A DNA stretch of 36,429 nt, taken from the NCBI GenBank assembly GCA_022925895.1, contig JAKSYS010000635.1:1-36429 (forward strand), in the 5' to 3' direction. This DNA comes from Fragilaria crotonensis. Its lineage: Eukaryota; Bacillariophyta; Fragilariophyceae; Fragilariales; Fragilariaceae. The notes under the pieces were generated by a model. That model was not told where the DNA came from, ran no database searches, and worked only from the letters and a program-made list of their open reading frames with translations. Below are positions 251-36,429 of the stretch, in pieces (position 1 is the first letter of the stretch; the number at the start of each line of letters is the position of its first letter). The position numbers were made by a program, and so were the translations under genes.

Positions 251-452
251 CTGTACGACGGGAGCACTGACGTAGCGACAGCCAGACGTACATGGTACGC
301 ACGAAACTCTCCAACGGTGCCTTGAAATGCATCTAAACGATAAGGACATTCTTTAGGTTGATCAGATCAACCCCAAGTAGTCTACGGGTGTAACGAGGCT
401 CTGAACAGCAGAGCCACGAGCACGAGGAGACTAGCTCCAAAATTGTTTAACC
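251..452 (+). repeat. Split direct repeat A1 (element 1 left end)
   Basis: Copy of the 202-bp repeat A, differing from A2 only at 295 (G here, A at 6114). The leading C at 251 also matches the last base of B1, so the boundary is ambiguous by one base. The repeat contains two perfect inverted repeats: 356-372 (GGTTGATCAGATCAACC, 8-bp arms) and 397-415 (GGCTCTG and CAGAGCC with a 5-nt loop). Both are kept in A2. Confidence 0.93.
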
Positions 453-485
453 ACCTGCTGGCACAAGACTTGAAGAATCCAAGTA

Positions 486-2363
486 ATGGCACAGCAGCAG
501 CCACCCGATGCCACCGGCACGCTGCCTCCCAGTAATTACCGGGAGTTATACGCTGCGGTCGGGTATCAGGCAGGCAAACCAGCACCAGGACGCCTCGTGG
601 CGAGCTACCGGTTCACCGAGACCTTAGGTGGAGGAGAAAGACCTACGCCGACAAACTTGAGGGAACAGACCTATGCTCTCAGCGAGCGTCGACCGATGAC
701 GTTCCTCTGTCTTTTGAGGAGACCGGATGCCAGCGTTGAAGTGCGAATCCTACATCGCATGATGCGATACTTTGAGCTACCCAACGAAGGGGGAGGCAGG
801 ATGATCGACTTGAGCATGGCGCTACTGGGCGATGTGCGCGCGGCCCAAATGCCAGTCGTCGAAGTGGACAACTCGCATTTCTCTCTCATTGGTGCGGGAG
901 TGCGAGTACCAACCATCGCCATTATGCCCGAGCAACTGGCGGCAGCGCCGCCAGGGGTCTACCTCGGACCATACGGGGCCGATGATCCCGATACCGAGGT
1001 AGTACGACCTCGTATGACCCAGGTTATCCCCACCAAGTATGCCGCGGCACTTATACATCGGGACGGGATCGCACCAGCGATTGCCTACCAAGAACTGGCG
1101 GGTATGTTAGCGGCGGACGGTACGTTGGAGGAGTGCAGCGATGTACTCTCGTGGCTGCGAGTTGCCTGCACCGCGCGAGGTGGTGGGGGCGACCAGGCAG
1201 CCCTACCCGCAGTGGCGCAGAGTTTCGCGCTACTGCTCCTACCAGCTGCAATCAGCGATTACGTTGCGGCGAAGGTTTATGCGGATCTCCCTGGTCAGCG
1301 ACGCGGTGGTGGAGACACGACCGTGGGAACCTTTGACCAGATGCTGACGGCGGTACAGCGGCTCGCCGCTGACGCGGGTGAAGGGGGAACAAGAGGAGCA
1401 CGGGAATCCAAAGGGGTGCTAGAGGCTTACAGAGAAACCTACGCAGTCCTCCTTCGCTACTGTCAGGTGACCACCGTCGATGAGCTGGCTCCCATCTGGA
1501 GTCGCCTCGCACGCTGTGCAAAGGGCGAACAACAGTCGGTGATCCAACAGGAGATGACCAGTGTTTGCGTCGCGCGGGGACTCACACCTGACCTCTACTG
1601 CCCAGCGGTTACCACTGGGCTGAAACAGGTAGTCTCGAGCCTAAACTTCGCCGGCAATGGGCCAGACGATCTATCGGCAGGCTGCCAGCCATTTCTGGTG
1701 GCGTATACAAATCAGTCCGATCACTACCGAGCACTGGACGACGCGACGGTCGCGAATCAGCTTGATCAGGGAACAGCCAACGCATCGCTAGCCGACATAC
1801 GCGACATCCGAGCGAAAGAGAAGGTTAAGCTCCCGCGCGATCTCAATCAAGTAAGCCTCACCTTGCGGCGTTACGCTGTACTTGTACACACCTTGTTTAA
1901 AGGACCCGGAGAGTCCAATCCCTTTGTGAAGTGCATGTGGCTTCTCGCCAACGCCTTCCACGAACGGCTGCCGCAGTTTCTGGGTCAACACCAAGCACTA
2001 GCAGGTACTACCCCATGGGGGGAAGTCTACCCAGCGCATGTCCTCCGACACGTGCAGATTAACGCGTACGAATACTTACAGGCCCTTCAGGTGGGAAGTA
2101 TCGGTGGCACAGGGGAGGCCGGCGACACGCCGGAACTCCCGTCATTCCGGGATCTCCTCCGCGACCTCCAGCGGGGCAGTTTCCACATGTCACCCTCGTG
2201 GTTGCCACTACCGATGACGGTCACGGTGGAACCCACACCGCCTGCGAGCAGGGCACGGGCCATCAATACCAAGAACCGCGCCTCTACAGCCGCCTCCGCA
2301 GCCTCGAGCCTTACATCTACGACCAGTGGGGACGCGGGAGCGGAAGTGGGGGTACGGCGGTAG
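486..2363 (+). CDS. Gag-like ORF1 of element 1
   Basis: A 625-residue ORF starting at an ATG 33 bp after repeat A1 and lying upstream of the RT. By position it is the structural, Gag-like ORF1 of a DIRS-order retrotransposon, probably forming the nucleoprotein particle. I see no CCHC zinc knuckle, protease motif, signal peptide or membrane segment. The last 60 residues are rich in Ser, Thr and Ala and are probably disordered. A better-ordered block around residues 440-540 contains aromatic and Leu-rich segments (for example LRRYAVLVHTLFKG). The function rests on gene order, not on a recognised domain. The frame is intact, unlike the RT region. Confidence 0.7.
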   Translation: MAQQQPPDATGTLPPSNYRELYAAVGYQAGKPAPGRLVASYRFTETLGGGERPTPTNLREQTYALSERRPMTFLCLLRRPDASVEVRILHRMMRYFELPNEGGGRMIDLSMALLGDVRAAQMPVVEVDNSHFSLIGAGVRVPTIAIMPEQLAAAPPGVYLGPYGADDPDTEVVRPRMTQVIPTKYAAALIHRDGIAPAIAYQELAGMLAADGTLEECSDVLSWLRVACTARGGGGDQAALPAVAQSFALLLLPAAISDYVAAKVYADLPGQRRGGGDTTVGTFDQMLTAVQRLAADAGEGGTRGARESKGVLEAYRETYAVLLRYCQVTTVDELAPIWSRLARCAKGEQQSVIQQEMTSVCVARGLTPDLYCPAVTTGLKQVVSSLNFAGNGPDDLSAGCQPFLVAYTNQSDHYRALDDATVANQLDQGTANASLADIRDIRAKEKVKLPRDLNQVSLTLRRYAVLVHTLFKGPGESNPFVKCMWLLANAFHERLPQFLGQHQALAGTTPWGEVYPAHVLRHVQINAYEYLQALQVGSIGGTGEAGDTPELPSFRDLLRDLQRGSFHMSPSWLPLPMTVTVEPTPPASRARAINTKNRASTAASAASSLTSTTSGDAGAEVGVRR

Positions 2364-2494
2364 CCAGCACGCAGGAACCTACGTAGCAAACCCAGCACGA
2401 GACACGGAGTTTGACACACTCAATTGCGACCTCAGATGCGGGATCTCCTCCGTGCGCATCCGCCGCTCGCAAATGATGCAGGAACGAATTTTGT

Positions 2495-5029
2495 GTGTCC
2501 TGGTGGGGCCGAGGCGGCTGCTACACGAACTGTGGACGTGCAGCCACGCACCGCCCGTTTGCATCCCAGGAGCGCACCCGCCTGCTCGCACGTCCGCACA
2601 CACCTTGTGGTTCCGGCCACAGCATCGGGAGGGCACCAGCGCTTGACAGGGCGGCCAGGGTACGGCGGCTGGTTCAGCTACCGCGCCCTGGCTCCTCGAC
2701 GCACCGCCTTGGCTCGGCGATCAGGACTTGGCTACCAGAGGCAACCACGCGCGCTCGACCGGGACGAAACCCAGCGCCAAAACCCTCGAACGCGGAACTA
2801 ACATTACGTAAGTATGCAGAACGTGCAGCACATAAATTAGCGAATATCGGATCATGGGAACTGTTTGTCTTGGAAGAACGTGGCCCAGCAGACATAGCGG
2901 ACACCGTGGGAGCACTCCCCCACAAAGCAGCTCGCTTGATGGAACACCTTCGTCGCCGCGGAGTGGGGGTCCCGCTGCAGACGGGGCCCTGGGCACAGGC
3001 AACGATCATTCAGGCGGCCCGGCGGGGGTCCCACCAGTCTGCTGACGCCGATATCGACTTCGTGTGCACCGAGATGCTAGAGTTTTGCGCGCAAGGTTTT
3101 TGGACGGTCCTGCCACTATCAGTGGCGCTCACACTCCCCCACCTGCGACTGTCGCCGCTGGGAGTCGTGCCCCAGCGCGATCGCCGGTCGCGACTCATTG
3201 TTGACTACACCTACTCCGGGGTTAACAATGAGACAGCGCGCCTTGCACCCTCAGAAGCAATGCAATTCGGGAAGACCCTTCAACGTGTCCTGGCAAAGAT
3301 CGTGCAAGCCAACCCGGCCTACGGGCCAGTGTATCTTGCCAAAATTGACATCGCCGATGGGTTTTACCGCATCGGTCTCCAGCCGCGCGACATCCCACGC
3401 TTGGGAGTCGTCCTGCCCTCGGATACCAGCGATCCTCTGGTGGCGTTCCCATTAGCCCTGCCGATGGGCTGGGTTGAGAGCCCACCATACTTCACGTCGG
3501 TCACCGAGACCGCCTGCGATTTGCTCAACGCGGCATTGCGGCGCTGGGACCCCCCACTACCGCACCGCCTCGAAACACTGGCCGCGACGCCCCCCGCGAC
3601 CACCACTCAAGTGCCGACCTCGTCCACGGTTGCAGCGGCTGCATGGCAGATGGCCCGTATGGGCTCGCCGACCTTGCAAACCCCCCCGCTTGCGTATGTC
3701 GACGACTTTATTCTAGCGGCGCAAACCACCCGCCACCAGCGACGGGTGATGTGCACAGCCCTCCACTCGATCGACCGAGTCCTACGTCCCCTCTCCCTGA
3801 CCGGTCGAGCCGCAAGGAACCCGTGTCGGTGAAGAAGCTCCGACAAGGTGACGCGTGCTGGTCCACGAGGAAGGTAGTACTCGGCTGGGACCTGGATACC
3901 GTGGCTGGTACGTTGTGCCTACCTCCGCACCGCCTGGACCGCCTCTACGCACTCCTTGACGCCTTCCTACCTACACGCAAACGGGTCCCTATCGCCGACT
4001 GGCATCGCCTGCTGGGCGAACTTCGCTCCATGGCCCCGGCGCTGCCGGGCGCACGTTTTTTCGGTTCTCCAAGACACGCTCCGCCAGAAGTCCCGCCACC
4101 GCCTTCGGCTCACTCGCCAGGTCTTCGACAGCTTAGCCGACTTTCGGCTTATCGCTGCCTCCCTGCGGGACCGTCCTACGCGCCTACGAGAACTCGTGCC
4201 GTCAGGCATCCCGGTTGCGTTCGGAGCCTGTGACGCGTGCGGCCGAGGTATGGGTGGCGTATGGTTCCGCCCCAACCAGGGCCCCATCGTTTGGCGCGCC
4301 ACGTTTCCGCGGGCTATCCAACGCGCGCTTGTGACAAGCGACAATCGCAGCGGCACCTTGTCGATTTCCGACCTTGAGCTGGCAGGCACGCTCGCGCATA
4401 AACACGCCCTCGTTCAGTGTAACCCAGCCGCGGTGGCCGAACGTCTCATCTGGATGGCCGGGGATAACCGCGCTTCCTTAGCGTGGGCCACCAAGGGGTC
4501 CTCCACAACCCGCTCAGCCCGGGCCTACCTCCTCCGCCTCAACGCACTCCACCAACGCCGCTTCCGCTACGTTCCTCATCACGACTTTATCGCTGGAAAA
4601 TCCAACGTAATGGCCGATGACGCGAGTCGGCGTTGGGATTTGTCCGACAGTGCCCTGCTCTCACACTTTAACGCTCTGTACCCCCAGGACACCTCATGGA
4701 CGTTGCTCCACCTGGAACCCAACATGCTCTCTGCCGTGATTGGTGCGCTGTCGAAACAACGCTACGTGCCAGCCACTCTACGCATCGTGTCGCCGCCACT
4801 GCCGCCACCTCGCGCGTCTGGCTCCGTTTCTGCCGCGCCAACGGCATTTGTCCGGACCTCAGCGACATCCCCGGCGACCCCGTCCCAGTCCTGCTCCTCT
4901 TCGCCCACCAGTACCGCACCGGGCGCATTGCCCCCCGCGATCGCCCAGTGCGCTCTCGCACAGTGGAGGAAGCCGTGCGCCAGGTGGCACAGGCGTTCTC
5001 CCGGGTGGGGTCCGTGGACCCTCGCCTGA
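2495..5029 (+). pseudogene. Reverse transcriptase-RNase H ORF2 of element 1, two frame breaks
   Basis: Encodes a DIRS-type reverse transcriptase followed by RNase H. RT signatures are PLGVVPQRD, the LAKIDIADGFYRI palm motif and the catalytic AYVDDFILAA box near 3690-3720. RNase H shows GACDACGRGMGG, ISDLELAG, AGDNRASLAW and GKSNVMADDASRRWD, matching the D-E-D-D set. The main frame (codons starting at 2495+3n) is left near 3785-3830, where it hits a stop at 3830-3832. It is resumed near 4052, in a run of six T (4054-4059). In between, the thumb/connection segment (VVLGWDLDT, LLGELRSM) is read in the -1 frame. The breaks compensate, so two 1-nt indels or assembly errors explain them. The frame opens at a GTG (2495). 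No upstream ATG is obvious in this frame, so the true start is unknown. The end overlaps the recombinase ORF by 334 bp. Confidence 0.88.
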
Positions 5030-5913
5030 ATTCCTTTGGCGACTTGGATTTTCGTCTTCGAGCCCTCTTTCGAGCTTGGCACAAAGCCGACCCGCCCCCT
5101 ACACGAGTGAAGCCGCTCCCCTTGTCGGTCATCCGTCAGGCGTACGCTTTGGCCTTCACACAACCCCCGGCGTCGCGGCTTGCCGCTACCGGTGACTGCC
5201 TTGTCTTGGCTTACTACTTCCTTCTCCGCCCTGGCGAGTACAGCGGTTGCCCCCGCACCGTTGCCGACGACCTCTTTCGCCTCCAAGACGTCGGCCTCTC
5301 CATTGGGCACCGTCGTTTGGACCCGATTCACTGCCCCCTCAACGATCTGCTCGCCGCCTCCTTTGGTTCCGTCACCTTTACCTCGCAGAAGAACGGCGTC
5401 GGGGGCGAGACGATCGGCCACGGCCGGAGCGGCCACCCCACTCTGTGCCCCGTCCATGCCCTCATCCGCCGCGTTCAGCAACTTCGCCTTGACGGCGCCA
5501 CCCCTGTGACGCCGCTCAACGCCTACAAGACCCCCGACGGCACGTGGCAATACGTCCTCCCCGCTGACGTTACCGCCCTCCTGCGCTCTGCCGTCGCGCT
5601 CCTTCCCCACACGGACCTGGCGGCACGTGATTTCACCGCCCGTTGCACTCGCGCCGGCGGCGCCATGGCCTTGCTCTGCGGCGGCATCGGCGCCGATCGC
5701 ATTCGCCTCATAGGGCGTTGGCGATCGGACGAAATCTACCGTTACCTCCATGTTCAAGCTCAACCCGTTATGGCCGAGGTCGCCGCCACTATGCTGCGCG
5801 GCGGCGATTTTCGCCTCAACTCCCCACCCTTTCCCACCGGCTCCCCCGGTGGCCCACCCTTTCCGGATCCTCCTGGCCCATTTGGCCAACGAGGTGCCAA
5901 TCCCCACTCATGA
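4696..5913 (+). CDS. Tyrosine recombinase ORF3 of element 1
   Basis: A 405-residue tyrosine recombinase that would integrate the circular DNA made by reverse transcription. The N-terminal core-binding (SAM-like) region starts near residue 30 (ATSRVWLRFCR). The catalytic region has box-I Arg in LLRPGEYS (about residue 177), a possible Lys in FTSQKNG, box II RCTRAGGAMAL (about 316) and the presumed Tyr nucleophile in IGRWRSDEIYRYLH (about 347). The first position of box II, usually His in HxxR, is Arg here (CGT at 5641-5643). The ATG at 4696 lies inside the RNase H ORF in another frame, and similar ORF2/ORF3 overlap is known in DIRS elements. The last nine codons and the stop lie inside repeat B1. 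The C-terminal tail is Pro/Gly-rich. Confidence 0.9.
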   Translation: MDVAPPGTQHALCRDWCAVETTLRASHSTHRVAATAATSRVWLRFCRANGICPDLSDIPGDPVPVLLLFAHQYRTGRIAPRDRPVRSRTVEEAVRQVAQAFSRVGSVDPRLNSFGDLDFRLRALFRAWHKADPPPTRVKPLPLSVIRQAYALAFTQPPASRLAATGDCLVLAYYFLLRPGEYSGCPRTVADDLFRLQDVGLSIGHRRLDPIHCPLNDLLAASFGSVTFTSQKNGVGGETIGHGRSGHPTLCPVHALIRRVQQLRLDGATPVTPLNAYKTPDGTWQYVLPADVTALLRSAVALLPHTDLAARDFTARCTRAGGAMALLCGGIGADRIRLIGRWRSDEIYRYLHVQAQPVMAEVAATMLRGGDFRLNSPPFPTGSPGGPPFPDPPGPFGQRGANPHS

Positions 5914-6070
5914 ATGGAGAGGGCACCTCGGAAGGTCGGCGTGCGCGGCAGCATAGTAAAAAGCGCCACTACCGCCGACACTACAACAATACACACTCAC
6001 TACCACTACTACATTATACATCGCAGCTGGCGCGAAGTCGGGGAGCCTGTCGAAAGCAGGAAACTCCCGC
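5886..6070 (+). repeat. Split direct repeat B1 (element 1, internal)
   Basis: 185-bp repeat B, abutting A2 directly. It differs from B2 at one base (A at 6058, G at 6455). It contains the stop codon of the recombinase ORF (5911-5913). Its 3' end forms a hairpin, GCAGGA-AAC-TCCCGC (6056-6070), with one mismatch that is perfect in B2. Confidence 0.93.
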
Positions 6071-6271
6071 TGTACGACGGGAGCACTGACGTAGCGACAG
6101 CCAGACGTACATGATACGCACGAAACTCTCCAACGGTGCCTTGAAATGCATCTAAACGATAAGGACATTCTTTAGGTTGATCAGATCAACCCCAAGTAGT
6201 CTACGGGTGTAACGAGGCTCTGAACAGCAGAGCCACGAGCACGAGGAGACTAGCTCCAAAATTGTTTAACC
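6071..6271 (+). repeat. Split direct repeat A2 (element 1)
   Basis: Second copy of repeat A, with one difference from A1. It follows B1 without a gap. The B1/A2 junction is where the ends of a circular replication intermediate would meet in the split-direct-repeat model. Confidence 0.93.
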
Positions 6272-6282
6272 CGCCCGCCCGC

Positions 6283-6467
6283 CCAACGAGGTGCCAATCC
6301 CCACTCATGAATGGAGAGGGCACCTCGGAAGGTCGGCGTGCGCGGCAGCATAGTAAAAAGCGCCACTACCGCCGACACTACAACAATACACACTCACTAC
6401 CACTACTACATTATACATCGCAGCTGGCGCGAAGTCGGGGAGCCTGTCGAAAGCGGGAAACTCCCGC
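6283..6467 (+). repeat. Split direct repeat B2 (element 1 right end)
   Basis: Second copy of repeat B, forming the right terminus. It is separated from A2 by 11 bp of C-rich sequence (6272-6282). It ends in a perfect 6-bp-stem hairpin GCGGGA-AAC-TCCCGC at 6453-6467. The flank ATGCCACA follows directly. Confidence 0.93.
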
Positions 6468-6734
6468 ATGCCACAAGGTACAGTACGTGTACCAGGCATG
6501 TAGTAGCTATTTACAAGACAAGACACAAACAAGCAGCGATGCGAGACATGCCGGACGGAAAACGAATTCAGTCACATCAGGGAAAATTTGGGTCGTATGT
6601 AGGAACGACCTCACATTTTTGGGTTGTCTCTGGTCACGCTACCTCAATCCATTTACGCCCCCGAACCATGACAATACAAAGTGGGGTCGTCGTATAATAC
6701 CATCCAATCATAAACTCTCTTGCTGCGCGATACC

Positions 6735-7013
6735 ATGGATACGAGTAATGCATCATTGATCGATCGCGCTTCAGAATCGCAGTCGACCAAAGGCCGACCT
6801 CGACGAAACACAGTTACGTTTGCTGATAACATCGTGACTCATGAATTTCCGACGAATGAATGCCAGTGCATCAATCAGACGAGTGATTTGAACAGCGCAG
6901 ATTATGATGCCAAGACTGACGACGTTGACTTCCCTGAAATGCAAGTATGGGATATTGATGACTCGGAGACATTCCAGCACCTTGTAAACAATTTGAAATT
7001 GATTTCCTCTTAA
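6735..7013 (+). CDS. Hypothetical short ORF
   Basis: A 92-residue ORF from the ATG at 6735 (an in-frame upstream start at 6720 is also possible). It is hydrophilic, with a basic stretch KGRPRRNTVTFADN followed by an acidic C-terminal half. There is no transmembrane segment, signal peptide or known domain. No continuation is visible in the same frame. It may be the start of the broken coding region that follows rather than a functional gene. Confidence 0.2.
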   Translation: MDTSNASLIDRASESQSTKGRPRRNTVTFADNIVTHEFPTNECQCINQTSDLNSADYDAKTDDVDFPEMQVWDIDDSETFQHLVNNLKLISS

Positions 7014-7421
7014 CTTGCAAGATTGATACCGAAGGCGCTGAAGCATCAGATCAGCACGTGTAACATATGTGTTGAGAATCGTTCCTACCCTTACTATCTT
7101 ACGAATGGTGACACTGCGGAAGGGACTTGGAAACTGCACACCGCCTCAAATTTTCCGTGTCATCGCCATATGAAGTGGAAGTTAGATCTTCGGCATTGCC
7201 GCTCAGATTCCGGTGGATGCCTCGTGAATGCCTGGGTATTCTATGCTTGAGCCCTATTTCATAACGAGAAACTTCCGACGGACGAGACTGGCTTTGGACT
7301 CTTGATTGTGAACACAGTCTGGAAGGTTATCATAGATTACAGCTGTAGAGATCGTCGATAGAATGAGGGCATCGTTGAACAAAACAGTTGCCGTCAAGTT
7401 CCAGGATGCTTTCCTTCATCT

Positions 7422-7807
7422 CTGGTTGCTCGTGACATGGGCCTTGTGGCTGCTGAGCTTCTGAGCGAGATCGATCTTCACTACAGCATTCCAGTGGATC
7501 GACATTGGGGATGTCACATAATTTTGCCTGCCCCTCGTTAATAGCTTGTTACCTCACATCAGGAGGTACATCAGGAGGAACTGGAGGAAAGAAGGGACGC
7601 ATGTACATTAATCATGGTCACACGTTGACGAGCCTTCCAGGAGAACTACTTTAGAGCTAGCATCGATTGTACCATCATAGTTACCTCGAGATCCATTTTC
7701 CTATGTGGGAATTTTGGTATGCATGGTATGCGACTTCAAATGGAGACGAGATTCACGTCGTGGCTGAAAAGATCTTTCCCAAGCGTTTCGAGTGTGCGGG
7801 CTTGTGA
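7422..7807 (+). pseudogene. Possible decayed coding relics
   Basis: Two protein-like open stretches are separated by stops. One (7422-7541) reads LVARDMGLVAAELLSEID and continues to a stop at 7539. The other (7661-7807, another frame) contains the aromatic block LEIHFPMWEFWYAWYATS followed by VVAEKIFPKRFEC and then a stop. The amino-acid texture suggests former coding sequence, but no family is recognised and neither piece has a start. This is weak evidence. Confidence 0.18.
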
Positions 7808-8140
7808 TTCCTCAGCCACCTGCCCGTCCACCGTCCACATATGATGTGAGTATTAGTAAGTAAGGACCAGGATGCGTCCTTCGGTTGATTGTTGATTCTA
7901 GCAACCTTCCTGACAAGGTGCAGGGGGAGTCCGAATAAAGACTTTTCCAACTCCAGTACTATTTGCAGAGGACTGAACGATGTAAAAACGTTCTGAAGAC
8001 TACTGTTGTGCTAATTGCAGGTACCGTACTGTCGACTGGAGTACGGACTACTGGCGTTTGTGTTCCTCAATGTAGTCATAGGATACCAGTCGTACTCCAA
8101 GTATCTCCGAATTACACTTACACATACGTCCTATAAAAGT

Positions 8141-8297
8141 CGAAGGCTATGCCTTCGAGTTCTGTTCGTTCGGGTCGTCCTCTCTTTCCAAACTAGTCGC
8201 TTCCTAGTATACTCTTCACCGATTCTTGGCGTCGGAATCAAGTCCTAGGAAAACCTCCTCCCCGCTGTTGCCTCCCTCTCTCTCAGTTCTGGGGCGC
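8141..8297 (-). repeat. Split direct repeat B2 (element 2, outer end)
   Basis: 157-bp repeat, identical to 8442-8598. Its outer end is a perfect hairpin: CGAAGGC-TAT-GCCTTCG at 8141-8157, with 7-bp arms and a 3-nt loop. In the sense orientation this is the 3' terminus of the element. Confidence 0.93.
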
Positions 8298-8314
8298 TAG
8301 GGCGGCTGGGTGGG

Positions 8315-8441
8315 AATTTAATTTCTAGATCTAGTCTTCGCCTTCGTCTTTCTCGTTGCCGTTCGTTGCGATTGTGATCGCTGCCTCACTTCCTGACGTT
8401 CGGCATCGGTCTGTCAGTCGTCCTTCCTCACGGACATCCCA
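8315..8441 (-). repeat. Split direct repeat A2 (element 2)
   Basis: 127-bp repeat identical to 14724-14850. It is separated from B2 by 17 bp (8298-8314), C-rich in the sense orientation, and directly abuts B1. Confidence 0.93.
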
Positions 8442-8598
8442 CGAAGGCTATGCCTTCGAGTTCTGTTCGTTCGGGTCGTCCTCTCTTTCCAAACTAGTCG
8501 CTTCCTAGTATACTCTTCACCGATTCTTGGCGTCGGAATCAAGTCCTAGGAAAACCTCCTCCCCGCTGTTGCCTCCCTCTCTCTCAGTTCTGGGGCGC
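8442..8598 (-). repeat. Split direct repeat B1 (element 2, internal)
   Basis: 157-bp repeat identical to 8141-8297. The hairpin at its A2-facing end (8442-8458) sits exactly on the B1/A2 junction. The recombinase stop (8721) lies outside this repeat, unlike in element 1. Confidence 0.93.
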
Positions 8599-8720: not shown

Positions 8721-10148
8721 TCAGGCGTCTTTCCTATCGATTGTGAAGAATTCTGGGTTCGTAGTCATCACGTCTGCGACTCCTCTCGTCATCTGTTGCA
8801 CCTGGATTCTGATATAACGCATGAACGTCTGACTTCGCCATCGCCCAATAAGCTGAATCGTTTCTGCCGGTACGCCCGCCAGGAACATCGCCATCGCTGC
8901 GCCCGCTCTGAGTGAATGCGTCCCAATTCTGCTTGCCGGGAAACCGAGTCGTCCTTCTCCATACTGAATGGCTGCCGCGCGCAGGTGCCGTAACACCTCC
9001 CCGACGTAATCGTCGTCACGCGTCCCCGACGCGAAAGTTGCAACCAGGTTCATCGGTCGCGTCGCCACATCTTTCCACCGCGTCTCGTCCAGATCATACG
9101 AAGAAATGCGCGACACCAACTCAGCTAAAGCTCGAACCGGGCACAGTCCCGCCTCCGGCTTTGTCTTCGTTCGATGCTGCGTAACTGTTACTCCGCGGTC
9201 GCCATTCTTTTGCGTCCGATTGGTGACAGAAACGGTATCTGCATTCACCAAAGCAGATTCGTGAGGAGCGCCGTCTATCGTCTTGCCATTTCGTCGGAAT
9301 ACGATATCCCCTATCTGCACGGTCTTCGTCCTCCTGGATCCGCTCGCCTCAGAATACTCGCACGAACGCATCGCAAAGAAAAAGGCTCCCGTCACGAGCT
9401 GGCCAATCGCCCGGTGCGTCTCAGTCGTTTTCACCTTCGCCACCATCTCGACCACTGCCGCCGGCAATGCTTGTCGCTGGCTGGGCTCGGGATTGTCCAA
9501 GGCGTATCCTCTCAATTGTGCAGCCAAAAGTGGGTCGAGTCGTCCTCGAGAATCGTGTGCGGGACTGCCAAGTTTGTTAGCCCGATAGGTCTGCACCACG
9601 CCGTCGATGGCGGCACGAACTGTGCCCGCCTTCCGTCCAACGCGAGATCCATGAGTGTGTCCGGTACGCTGCGTCGACGGCCGTCCTTCGTCCCGGTCGT
9701 CTGCGCCTCCCGTCCATCCTTCCCTGATCGCAGCGGCGAATCCTGTGAAAACTTCGATTCGCTCCTCGGGCTTGAGTCGAAGAAGGAAGGGGTCATTCTC
9801 GTTCCCGATTTCACCGAGGAAACTCTGGAACCTTCGCCAGCTGCGATCCCGCTGGGCGCGGGTCTCGATGGTAAAGGCTGAGTCTTGGGCAGTAGCTGCA
9901 GCAGCGAGCCAACGTCCGTAACGATCTTCTCCGGGAGCGAAACAACAAGTCGAAAGTCCTGTGGAATTTGGTGAGCGAAATTTTTCTTGATCAATTCGAC
10001 GACCTCCAAATCCCCTAAATCGAAATCTCGCGACAGCACGTCGGCGACCGCGTTTTCCTTGCCAGGGAACCATTGTGAATAGTGCGTCAACTCGTGGTCG
10101 ATCATGTACCGAGCCATCGTCCGCGCGATGGCCAGATGCAGTGGGCAT
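8721..10148 (-). CDS. Tyrosine recombinase ORF3 of element 2
   Basis: A 475-residue tyrosine recombinase with an ATG at 10148. The first ~90 residues are Arg-rich and overlap the RNase H ORF, so they may not all be used. The core-binding domain starts near residue 95 (TRAQRDRSWRRFQSFLGE). Catalytic motifs are the box-I Arg in FFFAMRSCEYS (about 263), box II THSLRAGAAMAMFLAG with a complete HxxR (about 414) and the presumed Tyr in IGRWRSQTFMRYIR (about 443). Its job would be to insert the circular DNA copy at a short core sequence. It overlaps ORF2 by 637 bp in a different frame, and the recombinase core-binding domain lies within the shared segment. Confidence 0.91.
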   Translation of the reverse strand: MPTASGHRADDGSVHDRPRVDALFTMVPWQGKRGRRRAVARFRFRGFGGRRIDQEKFRSPNSTGLSTCCFAPGEDRYGRWLAAAATAQDSAFTIETRAQRDRSWRRFQSFLGEIGNENDPFLLRLKPEERIEVFTGFAAAIREGWTGGADDRDEGRPSTQRTGHTHGSRVGRKAGTVRAAIDGVVQTYRANKLGSPAHDSRGRLDPLLAAQLRGYALDNPEPSQRQALPAAVVEMVAKVKTTETHRAIGQLVTGAFFFAMRSCEYSEASGSRRTKTVQIGDIVFRRNGKTIDGAPHESALVNADTVSVTNRTQKNGDRGVTVTQHRTKTKPEAGLCPVRALAELVSRISSYDLDETRWKDVATRPMNLVATFASGTRDDDYVGEVLRHLRAAAIQYGEGRLGFPASRIGTHSLRAGAAMAMFLAGVPAETIQLIGRWRSQTFMRYIRIQVQQMTRGVADVMTTNPEFFTIDRKDA

Positions 10149-12025
10149 TCATCTCCGAAACTCGATCGAGCAATCCACCCCGTCGCTGATGAACTGTCAC
10201 CTTGGCAAAGGACGACGTCATCCTCGACCCACGGCTCCCCAGCTTGATGCTCCACCCAAACCCCGACCAGAGCTGCAAGGAACTCAAGGCAGTTGAGGGA
10301 ACCCCGGCCAATCCAATCCGGCGGCAGGAGCAGGCGCCAGGCGATTCCACTTTGAAGACCGTAGCCCCCCATCCCTTGGGGGCACGCGTCCACTCGAACA
10401 ATCCGAGTCGGCCAACGGAAAACGAGACGGTTTATCGAGATGCCTTTCGCTGCAGCGTCCAAGAATGTTTCCCACAGCTTTAAGTCGGCTACCTGAGAAT
10501 TCGAGAGCTTTACCAAGCCGCACGCTTGGGCTCGCTCGCTGGCTCGATAAAGTCGTCCGAGGAAAGGTCGCGAGTTCGGAACCACGTAAGCCGCGTGATT
10601 TAAACGGCCAATCGTGGTCTCAAGCTCCTTTGCATGGGCCCTTCGTCCGGGCAGGGACCCCAACCGTTGGAGCTCGTTCACCCAGACGAGACGCTTGTCC
10701 GTTGGAGGCGAGACCTTGAAAGAGCGAGTGTTAACGTCCCATCCGAGGATCGTTTTCCTTTCGGACGCCTTAGCCTCTGCGAGGAACTTCGAGGCAGCAA
10801 GGAGGTCGTCTCTCGGAAACGATTCTGGCGCCCGCTCGTCTACAGGCCGTCCCACCAGGTGCATCGCGAGAGGTAGGACTGCCTCCGCTTTCTCTTCATC
10901 CCGGGCCAGGAAAACACCGAAGAGATCGTCGAGGTAGCACTCAAACTTCGCCAGACCGTCGTCCACGGGGTCTTCGACTGACATCGTGAACGCTTTCCCA
11001 AATTCGTCACCTGGGTCGACGTGTCCTCTGTCGTTGTCCACTGCTTCACTCGTCCGAAGGATCTTTTGCTGGGGAGCGCTCCACACAGTGGGGTCCCAGT
11101 CACTCCTCCTCACGAGGTGGTTTGCCAGGTCAGTGATCACTTCTGAGATGTTGCTCCACTGCGACGGGTTTGGTGCCCCTCCGAACGTCATCCGTAAGGC
11201 CACCAGTAGCATGCCCACTGTGCTAGTGCAGGACTTGAGCGCCGTCTTCGCTTTGAGGTGAACCCGCCTGTACGCCGACTTGAAATCGACCTTTGTAATC
11301 AACAACCTGTCGCTCGGGAACCGCCTCCGCAGTTTGCACGTATAGTGCAAAAAACGGAGCAACGCCCGACCGAATCGAGCTGGTGTAAGTCTGTCCGCGT
11401 CCACCCGATCATTGACGCTCCGTCTCGTTCCTCGAGTTGCGTTAAAGGACTGATCGTGCGTAAGTCTGAGCTTCGTCTCCTTAGCTCCGTCGGCTCCTAC
11501 AGTCGACTGCGACACCACCCCCAACGGCGCCACCTCGCAGTGAGGCAGCTCAAGGGCAGCTTCCTTTGGTAGCGGGAGTTGCCATCCGCGTCTTACTTCG
11601 TCCTTTAGCATGTCGAGCAGCTTGGCCTCGTGGCCCCGGGCCGATTTATGATTGCCGCGGGCCAAGCAGGCGGCGACGTCCGTGAGACGCTCCGCGTCGG
11701 AAATGTCGCGAAGAGGGAATTCCGCCCCGTCGGTGATGCGCTCCGAGAAAGCTGACCACAGGGGATGACGCGAGAGCAGCGGGGCCAGTACGTGAGCCGG
11801 CCGGAATTCCGAGCCGGGCGAAATCGTCGAAAAAGGTTGCGCAGCGAGGGCAGCACGTAAGTCCCCTGAGTAGCGTCGAAGGACGGCGAGATTATTGGCG
11901 GCAGCAGCTGGCGTCCATTCGAAGACAAAAGCGGTGTGGTGCGTACTCGGTTGGGGGGCGTCGAGAATCGCGCGGAACCGTCCGGGAGGGTCGACAAAGG
12001 TAACGGCGGGAAAACGACGCCGCAA
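9512..12025 (-). CDS. Reverse transcriptase-RNase H ORF2 of element 2
   Basis: About 837 residues, open throughout. An N-terminal region typical of DIRS-order RTs (SGDLRAALAAQ, GSEFRPAHVLAPLLSRHPLW) precedes RT motifs ELPHCEVAPLGVVSQ, LLITKVDFKSAYRRVHLKA and the catalytic CYLDDLFGVF box (about residue 363). The thumb has TILGWDVNTRSF. RNase H follows with IVRVDACPQGMGGYG (about 545), NCLEFLAAL, CQGDSSSATGW and GKENAVADVLSRDFD (about 663). The tail after about residue 700 shares DNA with the recombinase ORF. The first codon at 12025 is TTG and no ATG occurs before the conserved region, so expression probably depends on frameshifting from ORF1, which overlaps it by 421 bp. Confidence 0.92.
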   Translation of the reverse strand: MRRRFPAVTFVDPPGRFRAILDAPQPSTHHTAFVFEWTPAAAANNLAVLRRYSGDLRAALAAQPFSTISPGSEFRPAHVLAPLLSRHPLWSAFSERITDGAEFPLRDISDAERLTDVAACLARGNHKSARGHEAKLLDMLKDEVRRGWQLPLPKEAALELPHCEVAPLGVVSQSTVGADGAKETKLRLTHDQSFNATRGTRRSVNDRVDADRLTPARFGRALLRFLHYTCKLRRRFPSDRLLITKVDFKSAYRRVHLKAKTALKSCTSTVGMLLVALRMTFGGAPNPSQWSNISEVITDLANHLVRRSDWDPTVWSAPQQKILRTSEAVDNDRGHVDPGDEFGKAFTMSVEDPVDDGLAKFECYLDDLFGVFLARDEEKAEAVLPLAMHLVGRPVDERAPESFPRDDLLAASKFLAEAKASERKTILGWDVNTRSFKVSPPTDKRLVWVNELQRLGSLPGRRAHAKELETTIGRLNHAAYVVPNSRPFLGRLYRASERAQACGLVKLSNSQVADLKLWETFLDAAAKGISINRLVFRWPTRIVRVDACPQGMGGYGLQSGIAWRLLLPPDWIGRGSLNCLEFLAALVGVWVEHQAGEPWVEDDVVLCQGDSSSATGWIARSSFGDECPLHLAIARTMARYMIDHELTHYSQWFPGKENAVADVLSRDFDLGDLEVVELIKKNFAHQIPQDFRLVVSLPEKIVTDVGSLLQLLPKTQPLPSRPAPSGIAAGEGSRVSSVKSGTRMTPSFFDSSPRSESKFSQDSPLRSGKDGREAQTTGTKDGRRRSVPDTLMDLALDGRRAQFVPPSTAWCRPIGLTNLAVPHTILEDDSTHFWLHN

Positions 12026-14703
12026 GGCAAACGAGGGAGGGGAACAAGCGACTTACGTGGGGTGGGTGCAGGTTGCGGCGTCGTCCGTAACGTGGCAAGT
12101 TGCGTCGTCGTCCGTAACGTGGCAAAAGGACTTGTCTGGGTCGCGGCGGGGTCAGGTGGCGCGTCCGGCTTGTGCGTCGTCGTCTTGAGCATATCGAAGC
12201 GATGCGTCGGTGTCACAGCTGATGCTGATGTCGCTGTCGCCGTTGCATGGGACGTCGGACGAGCGGAAAAAGGCGAATGCGAACGAGCTGGGGCGCCCGG
12301 CGACGTGGTGCGAGCACTCGTACGGGCGAGGTGAGCGGGCGGTGGGGCTGGCGGGAGACCGTCGGCCCCCGCGACGTGGCGATAGTGGTCGAACTTGGCC
12401 CGTGGCGAAGCATACAGCCGTGCCGCGGCCGAGCGTGCAAGTAGTTCGTTGTGAGCTTTGCCTACATTCGTGTGCGGGAGCGTCCACGTTTCCTTTGGTA
12501 GGAAATTGTACGCAGTATCGGAGTTTCCTACTAGTTTGGGTTTCTTTGCTGCGTCTGCTGGCTGCCGACTCGGCATGCGTGCCCTACAGGACTCGATCCA
12601 TTTCCCAAGCGCGGTCGACTGCTCGCCCGTCAAGGCCACATGCGACGCCCGGAAGAAGCACGATTCGTTGCACACGCCGTTCAAGTGGTAGCGGCAGCAG
12701 AGGTTCGGGACTGGCGCCTCCTTGGCGTGGTCCAGAAATACTTGCCAAACGTCCCGACTCGTGAGCTTGAAAAGGCGTCCACTGGGGTTTCGGACTGCGT
12801 TCGTCGGGTAGGAGCTCCCACCCTTGCCCGATGCGCCTCCTCCGCTCGTCGCGGCGCGCGTGGCGTCCGCAGGACCTAGTTTTGCCTTTAAGGACGGGCA
12901 CAACGGAGGAAGGAACATGCCATCTTCCAGGTGCTGCCGCTCGGCCTGGAAATCGAATAAGGTCGTGTTGACCGCGTCGATGTGTCCGCAACTGGCGCAG
13001 GATGTAAGATACTGCTGGATGCGTCTTTCGACGAACCACCCGAGGCGGCTCGGAGCGGTGGCGTCCTGAAAAGCGAGACGTCTGAGATTTGCGACCGTGG
13101 TCCCACCGGTCCGAGTTAAGAAATGAACCCACGAACCCAACATCAGCGTGATCGGCGCTGCTGAACCGAATATGAGCTCCGTCACGCCTGCCATATTCTC
13201 GAACAGTTCGGCCAGAGCGCGAAAGTCGCGAGGCACCACGTGGCGTACGAGGGTCAGCTTCTTAATGTCCTTATCCGACAAACCCGTCGTCGAATCGGCC
13301 ACCTTCAGCTGCATCCTCATTAGGTCGTCCACGGCGTCAGAGTCGTCCGCACCACCCGTCAGCGACTTCTTCTCAAGGGGCTGAGGGCCGCACGAGAACA
13401 AGCTGAAGGCTTCGGGCCGATCGTTCGTAGTTGCAATAAAGGATGCCATCCGCACCGCCGAGCAGAAACCGGATGGCAACCATACGTCAAGCCCCAAGCG
13501 GGTCTTCAGGTGGTGATGCAAGTGCTGAGCCACGTAGGCTGCATTCGTTAGTCCCAAGATCTCCGTGTAAGTCTCCACCGGCGACGATCTCGACGCTCCG
13601 TCACCATCCCTCTCCGATGCGAACAAAATCATTTGTTGGGTGGTGATCGGGAAGGCGTCGAAACCTTTCTTCGGTGCAGTCATAGCGGCTCCTTTCGCAG
13701 TCGCTTGGATCGCGAGCGCGTTCGCTAAGTTCGTCCACACTTCCACCCCCACCGCGTCGACTCCGCGGGGAGCGGCCTCGCGAGCTGGGGAGCTCTCCTG
13801 CGCCGGCGTGGCTAGGGTCGGCAACAAGTAACGTCGATGGATACCGCTCGCCCAACGATCCGCTCGCTTGCTAAATGCAAGTCCCGTCCCTACTCCCTTC
13901 GCGCCTCCTTGGAATACTGTGGCGCGTTGGGTTGCATGATTCCAAAGCCAGATCGGGACGTAGGCTGCCTTCTTCGCCACAGGGGACTCGACCGGGTCAT
14001 GACCGGCCGCTCGCGCTCTCTTCCTGATCGCGTCGATCGCTATGAGGCAGAACTCGCCCGCGTCCGACGTGTACGCCCTCATCAGTGCCGCCACGAGGAA
14101 ACCCGGGAGCGGGAGTACGTTAGGCAGCACGATTGCGGCCCCCACTCCCGCCTCCGGGTCAATGTCGTCATTGTCCTCGTCGCTGTCCGTGAACAAGTCG
14201 GTGTCGTAGTCTTTTGGTTTCTTCGTTTTCTTGGCGCCTTTCTTCGCTTTTCCTTTACCTTTTGTCTGTCCTTTCGATCCTCCCAGAAGCTCCTTAGCTT
14301 TAGGGTGAGTAAGTGCGACGTCCCCAATCTCCGACCAATGGACCATTCTAGACCACTCGTAATTGAACCCGGTCTGTTGGTCGTACGTCCCCGTTTGACT
14401 AAGTACCACGGTAGCGGCGGTACTGCCGGCACCAATGAGCGCCCAAATGTCTGCGTCGTCGTCGTCGTCGATATCGTCGTTTCCATCCTGATGAACATGG
14501 TGGATCGTTTGAAAATCGCCGCCCTCGTGAGCGATGAGATGTCCAATTTTGGGAGAGCAGAACCGTCGAAAACCCGCCACGGTGTTAAGTGCCTGCGCGT
14601 GACGGTCTGCAAACGTGTCGACGGCGTCCCATTGATCGAGATCCTGAAAAACGTCCGCCCATGTCTTAGTAGTGTTATCGTCGTCGTGATCCGAAGTCGG
14701 CAT
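11605..14703 (-). CDS. Gag-like ORF1 of element 2
   Basis: A 1032-residue ORF with ATG at 14703, starting 21 bp inside repeat A1. It has an acidic N-terminus, a Lys-rich tract followed by an acidic tract (about residues 145-185), a long ordered central part and a zinc-binding-like cluster CCRYHLNGVCNESCFF followed by RASH (C-x7-C-x3-C-x5-H, about residues 668-688). The Pro/Ser/Thr-rich C-terminal ~200 residues are likely disordered. The cluster could bind nucleic acid, as Gag zinc fingers do. The last 140 codons overlap the RT ORF in another frame and look like its shadow, so the functional protein may end earlier or pass into ORF2 by frameshift. The Gag role is inferred from position. Confidence 0.78.
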   Translation of the reverse strand: MPTSDHDDDNTTKTWADVFQDLDQWDAVDTFADRHAQALNTVAGFRRFCSPKIGHLIAHEGGDFQTIHHVHQDGNDDIDDDDDADIWALIGAGSTAATVVLSQTGTYDQQTGFNYEWSRMVHWSEIGDVALTHPKAKELLGGSKGQTKGKGKAKKGAKKTKKPKDYDTDLFTDSDEDNDDIDPEAGVGAAIVLPNVLPLPGFLVAALMRAYTSDAGEFCLIAIDAIRKRARAAGHDPVESPVAKKAAYVPIWLWNHATQRATVFQGGAKGVGTGLAFSKRADRWASGIHRRYLLPTLATPAQESSPAREAAPRGVDAVGVEVWTNLANALAIQATAKGAAMTAPKKGFDAFPITTQQMILFASERDGDGASRSSPVETYTEILGLTNAAYVAQHLHHHLKTRLGLDVWLPSGFCSAVRMASFIATTNDRPEAFSLFSCGPQPLEKKSLTGGADDSDAVDDLMRMQLKVADSTTGLSDKDIKKLTLVRHVVPRDFRALAELFENMAGVTELIFGSAAPITLMLGSWVHFLTRTGGTTVANLRRLAFQDATAPSRLGWFVERRIQQYLTSCASCGHIDAVNTTLFDFQAERQHLEDGMFLPPLCPSLKAKLGPADATRAATSGGGASGKGGSSYPTNAVRNPSGRLFKLTSRDVWQVFLDHAKEAPVPNLCCRYHLNGVCNESCFFRASHVALTGEQSTALGKWIESCRARMPSRQPADAAKKPKLVGNSDTAYNFLPKETWTLPHTNVGKAHNELLARSAAARLYASPRAKFDHYRHVAGADGLPPAPPPAHLARTSARTTSPGAPARSHSPFSARPTSHATATATSASAVTPTHRFDMLKTTTHKPDAPPDPAATQTSPFATLRTTTQLATLRTTPQPAPTPRKSLVPLPRLPCGVVFPPLPLSTLPDGSARFSTPPNRVRTTPLLSSNGRQLLPPIISPSFDATQGTYVLPSLRNLFRRFRPARNSGRLTYWPRCSRVIPCGQLSRSASPTGRNSLFATFPTRSVSRTSPPAWPAAIINRPGATRPSCSTC

Positions 14704-14723: not shown

Positions 14724-14850
14724 AATTTAATTTCTAGATCTAGTCTTCGCCTTCGTCTTTCTCGTTGCCGTTCGTTGCGATTGTGATCGCTGCCTCACTT
14801 CCTGACGTTCGGCATCGGTCTGTCAGTCGTCCTTCCTCACGGACATCCCA
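14724..14850 (-). repeat. Split direct repeat A1 (element 2, 5' end)
   Basis: 127-bp repeat identical to 8315-8441. It is the 5' end of the element in sense orientation and probably holds the promoter. The flank ACACGTAG follows. Confidence 0.93.
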
Positions 14851-24671: not shown

Positions 24672-26536
24672 CTAGTTTTGGTGTCCCGCTACCCGATCAG
24701 CCCAATCTACGCCAGACATAGTGACCAGACCAATCACCATACCCCAGAAGATGGTGCTCGATGCATAATAAACACCATTCAAGCGAAGAAGCAGTGGGTC
24801 AATGCCTTGCAGCACTTCCACGATAAACATACCAACAGAACTGAGAGTTCCACCAAAGCCAGAAATGAAGGCAACCAGAACAATGCGTTCTCGGGGACCA
24901 GGATTTCCCGCCAGCAAAGATCCGAGCGATCCATGGAGAGCACATGCCAGCAAGTTGCAAGTAAAGGTACCGAGAGGGAAGCCAGGGCGAATTCCATTAT
25001 ACCGAGATAGTCGCCATCTGGCCATGACGCCGAAAGGACTAAACAACAGGCTCAAGGCGATGAGTTGGGATTCAGGGTCTTTATAGAATCCCAGCGAAAC
25101 GACTTGTGCCACCATCGACAAGATAAAGAATGCAGTCGCAACTGAGCGCACAGAAGGCAGTTCCAACTTCGGTTTCGCAGGCGGTGTCGGATCCCCTTCA
25201 GAACCTTCTTCTCCGAGATCCAATGAGTGCTCGTTTTGAGAGAGCCGAATACCATAACCACGGCGTTCATCCCTCCTCACTTCTTGCCGACATCGCCATG
25301 CAAAGATATAGACCGCGACATGCTGACCGAATCGATACGAGACAATTGGCAACTGCAGGCCCAACAGATACCCCACCAGGGCTTCCTGGACATTCCCAGC
25401 TCTAATCAAAGAGACCATACTGGAATTCCACGAGCTGAAGGATGACAGCGCTCCGCAGAACCCGTCTCGAAGTCCAAGCATTAGATCCTCGGACATGGCA
25501 GCAGGAGTTGTCCCTACCTTCCAACCGTCAGCGAGGGTGACTTTGGTAAGCCGTTGAAGGTTGGAGGTCAGCATTCTGGCTTCACTTTGAACATGTCCAG
25601 CAAGAGAACTCGACACATCGTATATGATTTGATCCAGATCGCGTTCAAGCGCTGTGCCATAGTCAACAGCGTCATTGTGAGGTTGTTGGGAGGTGTGGGT
25701 CGATTTGCTTCGCCATTTCGCGATTCATCATCATCTTCATTCTTCCCGTCACTTTCTTCGTTAACGACATCAGTAACTTCTTCATCGTGATTGCGCCGAT
25801 AGCCATCCGAAAAATAATGCTCCATCAAGTCAGCCTCTTCCTTCGCAACCGGAAACAGAAGAAGTGACTGACTTGCACGAATACGACGCTCGAGAGCCAA
25901 AAGCTGCACATGGCGAAGCTCTGCGTCTCCTTTCCTTGGACGAGGTCGATAGATGCGATTGCGTTTACGACGTCGCAAGCGTTCTAAACGAGGCGAATCT
26001 GTAGAATGCAAGAGCGGATCGTGTTCGTCCTCCGCCTCATCTTGTCTCTGGTCAGGTGTAAAACGAGTTTCAATAATGCTCATGAGATCTGGTCCGGATG
26101 CAAGACATCCCATAAGAAAGGATGAAAGAGAGTTGAGGGGTAGATTGACAAACAGCGCCGAATCTTCTCGAAACGTCCCATCGAAATAAGAAAACCAGCC
26201 TGCTGCGGCCAAACGAAACAATATGCCAAACTGCGTGAAGATAGATAGTATGATAATGTCATCGTAATACTTCCAGAACTGCTCCACAAACAGGCGATTT
26301 TCCTCATCGACGTTATTATTTCCGCTGCAACTCGATTCGCCTGACTCAGTTTCGTGCTGGGGTGCAATGGCTCCACGGCCGGGATAGAAAAAGTTGCGAA
26401 TCGCCTTCTGCGACTGGAGTTTAAATTGCTCGTGCAGGGCAGCATTGTTTGAGGATCCAGCAGCTTGATCGTCTTCTCCCTCCCTTCCACCCTGCATCGA
26501 AGGTGAACGCGGTGGCGACGACGTCGGGTCAGGCAT
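24672..26536 (-). CDS. FEX: Two-domain fluoride channel (FEX/CrcB family), frame break in linker
   Basis: Exports fluoride passively across the plasma membrane. Eukaryotic FEX proteins carry two CrcB/Fluc domains in one chain, as here. Domain 1 begins at about residue 90 with QFGILFRLAAAGWF and FVNLPLNSLSSFLMGCLA. A long charged, acidic linker with RRRKRNRIYRPRPRKG follows, then GLRDGFCGALSSFSSWNS. Domain 2 has GFPLGTFTCNLLACALHG and VAFISGFGGTLSSVGMF, including the conserved Asn in the GT-xxx-N motif. The start is taken as the ATG at 26536; upstream in-frame codons lack an ATG. The reading frame changes between about 25690 and 25620, inside the linker. That means a 1-nt indel or an unrecognised short intron; both flanking frames are clearly coding. 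The total is about 625 residues with 8-9 membrane segments. It is probably a host housekeeping gene rather than mobile DNA. Confidence 0.85.
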
Positions 26537-35361: not shown

Positions 35362-35901
35362 CAGTACCCCAGAGTGGTCATACTCCGTAACAGACGCACG
35401 CACTGACGCAACTACGTATATGCAAATCTTACCGACATCGCTTACGGAGTACTCCAGTATGCATGTATGACATATATCATACTCCGAGTATGAGACAGTA
35501 TTCATTTGATCCAGTACCCCAGAGTGGTCATACTCCGTAACAGACGGACGCACGCACGCACACACGCACACAATTAATTTATAACTAGTGGGTACCTCAC
35601 ATTTGATCGGAGTGTCTACTACAGGAAACTGGACGTACAGTACCCCCAACCTGGTCGTACTCCGTACCACTACTTTTACTGTTACTGTTTACTTTCAGTA
35701 CTCAACCCTGGCGAAGTGAAAAAATTCAGACAGTATTCATTTCATCCAGTACCCCAGAGTGGTCATACTCCGTAACAGACGGACGCACGCACTCACGCAC
35801 ACAATTAATTTATAATATAGTAGGATAGTAGGATATCCTACTATATTATAAATTATTATGTGCGTCCGTCTGTTACGGAGTATGACCACTCTGGGGTACT
35901 G
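35362..35901. repeat. Dispersed repeat family: three direct copies and one inverted copy
   Basis: The core CAGTACCCCAGAGTGGTCAT plus ACTCCGTAACAGAC occurs at 35362-35395. It recurs inside ~90-bp copies at 35494-35584 and 35729-35815 (both starting GACAGTATTCATTT and ending CAATTAATTTATAA). It is inverted at 35847-35901. The third copy and the inverted copy form a large imperfect hairpin around GGATATCC (about 35831-35838). Confidence 0.9.
35584..35668 (+). repeat. Left arm of a perfect 85-bp inverted repeat
   Basis: Reverse complement is identical to 36196-36280. The arms enclose 527 bp and begin and end with ACTAGT. They could be the long terminal inverted repeats of a ~700-bp foldback-like element. 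A diverged relative of the outer ~30 bp also lies at 35253-35282. Confidence 0.9.
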
Positions 35902-36280: not shown

Positions 36281-36429
36281 AGTAGAATAATTTTTCTAGT
36301 CCAGGTACTATGTTTAAACTCGTACCGCAATACTAGTACCGATACAAAAGCTCGAGTCGAAATTGAGATGTTCGTTCTGTACATGTATCAGCTCCACTTC
36401 GTATTGAAAGCATCGATTTTGATCTGAAC

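Follow-up and report, generated by a model that had tools for sequence, protein, structure and literature searches.

Hairpins at the B-repeat ends of two Ngaro-like retrotransposons in Fragilaria crotonensis and their possible part in a tyrosine recombinase site

Introduction

Ngaro elements are tyrosine recombinase (YR) retrotransposons whose open reading frames (ORFs) and split direct repeats follow the layout A1-[ORFs]-B1-A2-B2, according to the accessible portions of PMC8547959, PMC9210276 and PMC4157794. As far as the available excerpts go, families of this kind are known from a brown alga (PMC12477816) and a flagellate (PMC8547959). Here we describe two elements with this layout, EL1 and EL2, in a contig of 36,429 nt from the diatom Fragilaria crotonensis (JAKSYS010000635.1, positions 1 to 36,429 of the forward strand, assembly GCA_022925895.1; the whole stretch is called the window below). 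In both, repeat B ends in a short hairpin and repeat A begins on the very next base. EL1 and EL2 resemble Ngaro elements in the order ORF1, reverse transcriptase and RNase H (RT/RH), YR, in their split direct repeats, in having no target duplication, and in yielding no methyltransferase match. Their A and B repeats measure 201/185 nt in EL1 and 127/157 nt in EL2, as against 236/152 in a Xenopus family (PMC9210276, in the part of the text available). By layout, we regard them as new members of the Ngaro kind. PAT-like elements also have split repeats; the methyltransferase that marks them has no Pfam match at E ≤ 0.1 in seven ORFs of EL1 and EL2, and this is a weak negative, since even the RT barely matched Pfam.

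DIRS1, in the accessible portion of PMC3266345, has inverted terminal repeats, internal complementary regions and a 3-bp junction identical to its target. EL1 and EL2 share with it a circle junction lying beside a short palindrome with a 3-nt centre, and the absence of a target duplication. They differ from it in that their repeats are direct and split, the border lies at the edge of the palindrome, and no 3-bp identity between junction and target is found, with one base (C) shared at the border of EL1 and none at that of EL2.

The YR retrotransposons as a group are understood to integrate from a circular intermediate. To our knowledge, the way in which the circle of a split-repeat element is closed and its integration point chosen has been deduced from anatomy, not from experiment. 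A fixed structural mark at the join would provide a concrete recombinase substrate and show which end carries the binding sites, and a hairpin at the B end would help annotators to place the 3' end of such elements. The main texts of PMC4157794, PMC8547959, PMC9210276 and PMC3783388 nowhere use the word 'hairpin', and in the titles, opening abstract lines and passages covered, outside which the original Goodwin and Poulter work falls, we found no published description of a hairpin that ends split repeats.

Results

Both YR retrotransposons of the window show the Ngaro-type order; EL1 lies on the plus strand at 252-6467 and EL2 on the minus strand at 14850-8141, with the following parts.

252-452, plus strand: EL1 repeat A1, the 5' end of the element, 99.5% identical to 6071-6271; left side without a hairpin
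486-2363, plus strand: EL1 ORF1, 625 aa, in the gag position; no Pfam match at E ≤ 0.1, gag by position only
2495-5029, plus strand: EL1 RT/RNase H region, frame broken around 3830-3956
4696-5913, plus strand: EL1 tyrosine recombinase, 405 aa, similar to the YRs of EL2 and of the relative L004
5886-6070, plus strand: EL1 repeat B1; the hairpin takes up its final 15 nt (6056-6070) and carries one A.C mismatch
6071-6271, plus strand: EL1 repeat A2; its first base adjoins the hairpin, and CGGGAG at 6078-6083 repeats the hairpin arm in inverted form
6283-6467, plus strand: EL1 repeat B2; its final 15 nt (6453-6467) are the perfect hairpin GCGGGA-AAC-TCCCGC, the 3' end of the element
8141-8297, minus strand: EL2 repeat B2; 8141-8157 is a perfect hairpin, CGAAGGC-ATA-GCCTTCG in the sense orientation, the 3' end of the element
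8315-8441, minus strand: EL2 repeat A2, sense start TGGGATG at 8441, 100% identical to 14724-14850
8442-8598, minus strand: EL2 repeat B1, perfect hairpin at 8442-8458, 100% identical to 8141-8297
8721-10148, minus strand: EL2 tyrosine recombinase, 475 aa, motifs THSLR...GRW...RY
9512-12025, minus strand: EL2 RT/RNase H ORF, 837 aa, aligned with pieces of EL1; no Pfam match of its own
11605-14703, minus strand: EL2 ORF1, 1032 aa, in the gag position; no Pfam match at E ≤ 0.1
14724-14850, minus strand: EL2 repeat A1, the 5' end of the element; left side without a hairpin

The hairpin forms the last 15 nt of repeat B in EL1 and the last 17 nt in EL2, in each case with a 3-nt loop, and repeat A starts on the following base. 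It is perfect at three of the four B ends, and the fourth, that of EL1 B1, has a single mismatch. A preliminary description of this DNA had reported GCGGGA-AAC-TCCCGC at 6453-6467, CGAAGGC-TAT-GCCTTCG at 8141-8157 and 8442-8458, one mismatch in EL1 B1, and a sense repeat A that opens with TG directly after the hairpin. All of this is borne out by the letters: the mismatch lies in GCAGGA at 6056-6061, as an A.C pair of 6058 with 6068, and A2 opens with TG at 6071 and 8441, as A1 does at 252 and 14850. Its further statement that the hairpin sits exactly on the B1/A2 junction holds in the sense that the two are flush; the hairpin does not straddle the junction, being wholly the 3' terminus of B. 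The change in EL1 B1 leaves an A.C pair in the sense strand and a tolerated G.T pair in the opposite strand, a faint hint, from one base only, that pairing in the cDNA strand is favoured.

At their left ends the elements meet the flanking DNA as GGCTATCACC|TGTACG in EL1 and TACTACGTGT|TGGGATG in EL2, with no trace of a hairpin at 252 or 14850, and neither flank pair shows a target-site duplication. Since the hairpin is missing from the left ends, element and target meet at its 3' edge: all of it stays with the right end and nothing of it with the left. The same observation disposes of a crossover in the hairpin loop in the manner of DIRS1, with AAC or ATA as the junction triplet, since the left ends at 252 and 14850 are without the right arm.

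EL2 looks younger than EL1, since the RT/RH frame of EL1 is stopped while the three ORFs of EL2 are open and its repeats are 100% identical. Repeat A of EL1 also contains a perfect hairpin with a 3-nt loop, GGTTGATCAGATCAACC, at 356-372 and 6175-6191.

The window as a whole is rich in palindromes. Counting perfect hairpins with a stem of at least 6 bp and a loop of 3-8 nt, it holds 94, as against a mean of 46.6 in 20 shuffles; for 3-nt loops the figures are 23 and 9.85. The 3' edge of a maximal perfect hairpin falls on a given base at 0.258% of window positions, and within 1 nt of it at 0.77%. In that count EL1 B2 and EL2 B1 are exactly flush, and the stem of EL2 B2 gains one pair from the first flanking base. 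Multiplying these window densities, with a factor of 12 for six boundary types and two edges, we put the joint chance of two elements bearing a hairpin at the same boundary at about 8e-5 (flush) to 7e-4 (within 1 nt). At the 10 other split-repeat boundaries examined, no such perfect hairpin spans the boundary or lies within 4 nt of it. Folded with DNA parameters in 24-nt windows, the B-end hairpin of EL1 reaches -6.7 kcal/mol against a shuffle minimum of -6.2 +/- 1.1 (20 shuffles), and that of EL2 -7.3 against -5.7 +/- 1.2, so that neither is exceptional and thermodynamic strength was discarded as a signal. The signal is the position of the hairpin, not its strength.

A motif search of genome_contigs returned 15 stretches, of which 13 were dropped and two, L004 and L009, are relatives at E ≤ 1e-3. 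Both are short contigs assigned to bacterial metagenome-assembled genomes, and we take them to be eukaryotic DNA. L004 (3,038 nt) encodes an RNase H 37% identical and a YR 45% identical to those of EL1, followed by about 500 nt and then an ORF on the same strand. Between the YR and that ORF lies the 38-nt hairpin CGCATCTCAGAGGTGGC-ATA-GCCACCGTCTGTGATGCG, with a bulged base, at 840-803 of the minus strand (-16.5 kcal/mol, where shuffles reach a minimum of -7.3 +/- 1.2). At the centre it has the same GGC-ATA-GCC as the hairpin of EL2, a coincidence of about 1 in 4096 for two 3-nt-loop hairpins by our arithmetic. The claim that the hairpins have unrelated sequences but the same structure and place applies to EL1 and EL2 and does not hold wholly in the wider family, where this core is common to EL2 and L004. 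The ORF beyond the L004 hairpin has no detectable similarity to EL1 ORF1 (E 3.1), so it can be called gag by position only; if it is gag, the hairpin region would be a B|A join, stemming from a circular or tandem form or from an assembly path that ran through A. A run of repeats of about 19 nt lies at 967-1100 of L004, between the YR and the hairpin.

L009 (5,515 nt) contains RT/RH, YR, an ORF on the opposite strand, and two B-like repeat copies 415 nt apart, of which the second runs off the contig. A hairpin of 12 bp with a 5-nt loop lies between the B copies, at nt 202-230 from the start of the first (-14.7 kcal/mol against a shuffle minimum of -9.5 +/- 1.4), and a still stronger one lies at the start of the B-like repeat. 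At minus 573-1 and about 2455-1328 this YR element shows the opposite-strand ORF, placed between the YR and the repeats, and a start of B that is tandemly duplicated (56 nt) around a strong GC-rich hairpin. As the B end can be placed in neither contig, L004 and L009 support a strong hairpin after the YR and not a hairpin flush with A.

Other searches added no relatives. Searching viral_contigs by tblastn with queries P0002, P0001, P0005, A1, A3 and A4 confirmed none, as did tblastn of genome_contigs with A3 and of phages with P0001, and motif searches of viral_contigs gave no stretches in one case and three in another, none at E ≤ 1e-3. Among whole genomes searched with alignment A4, positives numbered 1 of 210, 1 of 396, 0 of 5, 0 of 396, 0 of 395 and 0 of 398, counts that rest on the best few candidates per genome, and both positives were already known. 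A DNA search of genomes G001 and G002 for more copies found the known contig only.

Both elements encode a YR in place of a DDE integrase, and the two recombinases align with 28% identity over 398 columns (E 7e-25). That of EL2 matches Phage_integrase at E 0.0047, below the Pfam cut-off, and a PHROG integrase at E 3.3e-4. Its predicted structure is of low confidence (pLDDT 57.8, pTM 0.46); in Foldseek the best matches of this model are Cre chains (E 6e-6), with Cre or Cre-derived proteins in 30 of 30 at E ≤ 0.001, and the integron integrase structure 2a3v matched as well (E 1.6e-3). The catalytic His of the HxxR motif is replaced by Arg in EL1 (TARCTR) and in L004 (SARSLR); since the same change occurs in both, it may be a family trait rather than decay. 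The RT of EL1 matches RVT_1 at E 0.0046, also below the Pfam cut-off, and open pieces of EL1 align to EL2 in the RT (E 5e-12) and RH (E 3e-8) regions. No profile matched RNase H in either element, where we take the domain to be RNase H from its motif.

A YR site typically consists of two inverted repeats around a spacer of 6-8 bp, in the portion of PMC3212892 available. Set against the usual core, with arms of 11-13 bp and a 6-8 bp spacer that contains the crossover, the EL1 junction offers 6-bp arms and an 8-bp spacer, and the EL2 junction 5-bp arms and a 16-bp spacer. The inverted repeat of EL1, CTCCCG-CTGTACGA-CGGGAG, is built from the right arm of the hairpin together with that arm's inverted counterpart in A, and the border falls within its spacer. 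Arms of at least 6 bp were found at 108 of 4000 random window positions for spacers up to 10 bp and at 238 of 4000 for spacers up to 20 bp. A core common to both junctions was rejected, as only EL1 has a candidate for one. In having inverted arms around a border-holding spacer, EL1 recalls loxP, as the Cre-like model of the EL2 recombinase does; it departs from loxP in its short arms, in the lack of such a core in EL2, and in the extra inverted arm that makes a terminal hairpin. Within the first 30 nt of A, an extra copy of the arm has an empirical probability of 0.015 in EL1, 0.088 in EL2, 0.42 in L004 and 0.017 in L009, where each value is for the better of the two orientations and the start of A in L004 and L009 is assumed to follow the inner hairpin directly. 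Such copies are suggestive, not firm, as candidate half-sites.

Joined across the insertion, the empty target of EL1 (237-251 + 6468-6482) reads GTGGCTAT-CACC|ATGCCAC. It matches the L004 palindrome, GGTGGC-TAT-GCCACC on that strand, at 8+7 nt, a score of 15 in a post hoc comparison, which no position reached among 3000 random ones or among the 36,399 of the window. No other of the eight palindrome/target comparisons is as extreme; the next, the EL2 palindrome against the EL1 target, is equalled at 1.7% of random positions, and nothing stands out in the remaining six. EL1 may have inserted into a site like the join of a related element, or related recombinases may favour such arms, on the strength of a single site examined post hoc. 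As a rule for targets, the presence of a hairpin was discarded: compared with 1000 random 80-mers from the window, the joined target of EL1 falls in the most stable 5.8%, and that of EL2 lies at the 84% quantile.

Discussion

We favour, tentatively and with somewhat less than even confidence, the view that the hairpin is a DNA palindrome that forms the B-side part of the element's own YR attachment site at the circle junction. The role of a recombinase site is the best supported one because both elements carry a YR and because the hairpin abuts the base at which A1 and B2 would join in the circle. Further points in its favour are the flush position in both elements and at none of the 10 other boundaries, the inverted arms around the EL1 border, the extra arm copies in A, the core common to EL2 and L004 and, post hoc, the match of the EL1 target to the L004 palindrome. 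The split-repeat anatomy, the recombinase gene, the position of the hairpin and the border at its 3' edge are all directly observed; formation of a circle, which follows the model for the group, binding of the palindrome, and strand exchange at its edge are inferred. Reverse transcription of the element RNA would yield a circle in which the B2 end meets the A1 start, with the internal B1|A2 serving as the template for that join. The recombinase would bind the half-sites that repeat at the B end, joined at least in EL1 by an additional inverted copy close to the start of A, and strand exchange with the target would take place at the palindrome's 3' edge. Integration in this manner would leave the whole palindrome at the 3' end, none at the 5' end, and no target-site duplication. 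The preliminary description had proposed a recombinase binding or core site; the site survives as the best supported role, and a crossover core at the centre of the hairpin does not, as the left ends are without the right arm.

Several observations weigh against an attachment site of this kind. There are four loci in all, and the B end is defined in two of them only, EL1 and EL2. The stem of EL1 B1 is broken, and its mismatch excludes it from the count of perfect-hairpin edges. Repeat A of EL1 has hairpins of equal or greater strength, for example GGCTCTGaacagCAGAGCC at -7.8 kcal/mol, and in 40-nt windows hairpins inside A and near the start of B beat that at the B end, including an imperfect one with an 8-bp outer stem, 5 nt inside the B start, at -10.2. 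At the EL2 junction a core of the usual type was not found: the best candidate, CCTTC-16 nt-GAAGG, is matched or beaten by 813 of 4000 random positions. As to the extra arm copy, EL2 has a weak one, L004 has none, and that of L009 is in direct orientation. Circle and target agree across the junction no better than by chance (by our count EL1 has 3 matches in 16 bases and EL2 has 4), and the arms of EL1 itself (GCGGGA) do not match those in the EL1 target. In addition, a score of 14 against the L004 palindrome occurs at 15 window positions, six of them in the left flank of EL1, which repeats GTGGC, so that the match of the EL1 target is less striking.

One alternative is a role at the level of RNA, in which the hairpin would be the 3' end structure of the genomic RNA or a pause or transfer signal at B1|A2; the terminal paired stem would self-prime the first strand, or would stop the RT so that strands switch between the A copies. 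It is in keeping with this that in EL1 and EL2 alike the last pair of the stem includes the 3' terminal base, as self-priming requires. Self-priming also requires an RNA that ends exactly at B2, however, and the presence of a full internal B1|A2 copy suggests that RNA ends are incomplete and are repaired from it. The single change in EL1 B1 gives A.C in the sense RNA and the tolerated G.T in the other strand, and an extra arm copy in A is not needed under this model, which we consider unlikely. Another reading is simple coincidence, in which a genome rich in palindromes has put hairpins at the junction that do nothing there. It gains some weight from the roughly twofold excess of hairpins over shuffled sequence (94 against 46.6), from the number of elements, which is only two, and from the hairpins in A and near the B start of EL1 that equal or surpass the B-end hairpin in strength. 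Nonetheless, a flush position in both elements has a chance of about 8e-5 to 7e-4 even with the factor of 12, and strong hairpins recur after the YR in L004 (-16.5 kcal/mol) and between the B copies in L009 (-14.7), so that we think coincidence an improbable explanation.

A further alternative is recombination of a folded single strand, in which the recombinase would act on the hairpin of a single-stranded circular cDNA as integron integrase acts on attC. In the available text of PMC2727003, and in part from general knowledge, attC likewise has its palindrome to one side of the circular join, is recombined close to the outer edge of that palindrome, and is acted on by a YR. In EL1 and EL2 the palindrome indeed lies entirely to one side of the join and the border is its edge, its shape is kept while its sequence differs between the two elements, neither element shows overlap identity with its target, much stronger hairpins occur in L004 (with a bulged base) and L009, and integron integrase 2a3v is among the structure matches (E 1.6e-3). 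Against this, Cre fits the EL2 recombinase model better than IntI does, the short stems of EL1 and EL2 pair perfectly and contain no extra-helical bases, and the border lies at the outer edge of the stem and not inside an outer box. Nor do EL1 and EL2 have the R and L boxes or the GTT/AAC crossover of attC, the AAC of EL1 being its loop and not its border. The common GGC-ATA-GCC core and the arm copies in A point to recognition of sequence, and we judge a folded substrate quite unlikely. More speculative, and in our view very unlikely, is the extension of this scheme to Ngaro-like elements at large, which would then integrate from single-stranded circular cDNA, their recombinase recognising the folded B-end hairpin and joining its edge to a double-stranded target without overlap identity. 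A folded strand as substrate would explain why shape and position are kept and sequence is not, and the scheme, if true, would give integron attC recombination a eukaryotic counterpart carried by retrotransposons. A short hairpin at the 3' end of a mobile element is also a feature of Helitrons (PMC8969392, in the part available), which differ in enzyme and mechanism and whose 3' ends read CTRR.

Other features of the window

Outside the two retrotransposons the window contains the following genes.

24672-25616, minus strand: ORF with two CrcB stretches (E 2.9e-17), presumably a protein of the fluoride-channel type
32543-33835: DDE_Tnp_4 ORF, 430 aa (E 4.9e-20), which we take to be a DDE transposase of the PIF/Harbinger type

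A perfect 13-bp hairpin lies at 34819-34848 and a 22-bp hairpin at 35806-35855, the latter within a stretch at 35362-36292 that also holds inverted repeats of 95% identity (35572-35677 and 36187-36292). The features at 34819-34848 and 35362-36292 are perhaps small inverted-repeat elements.

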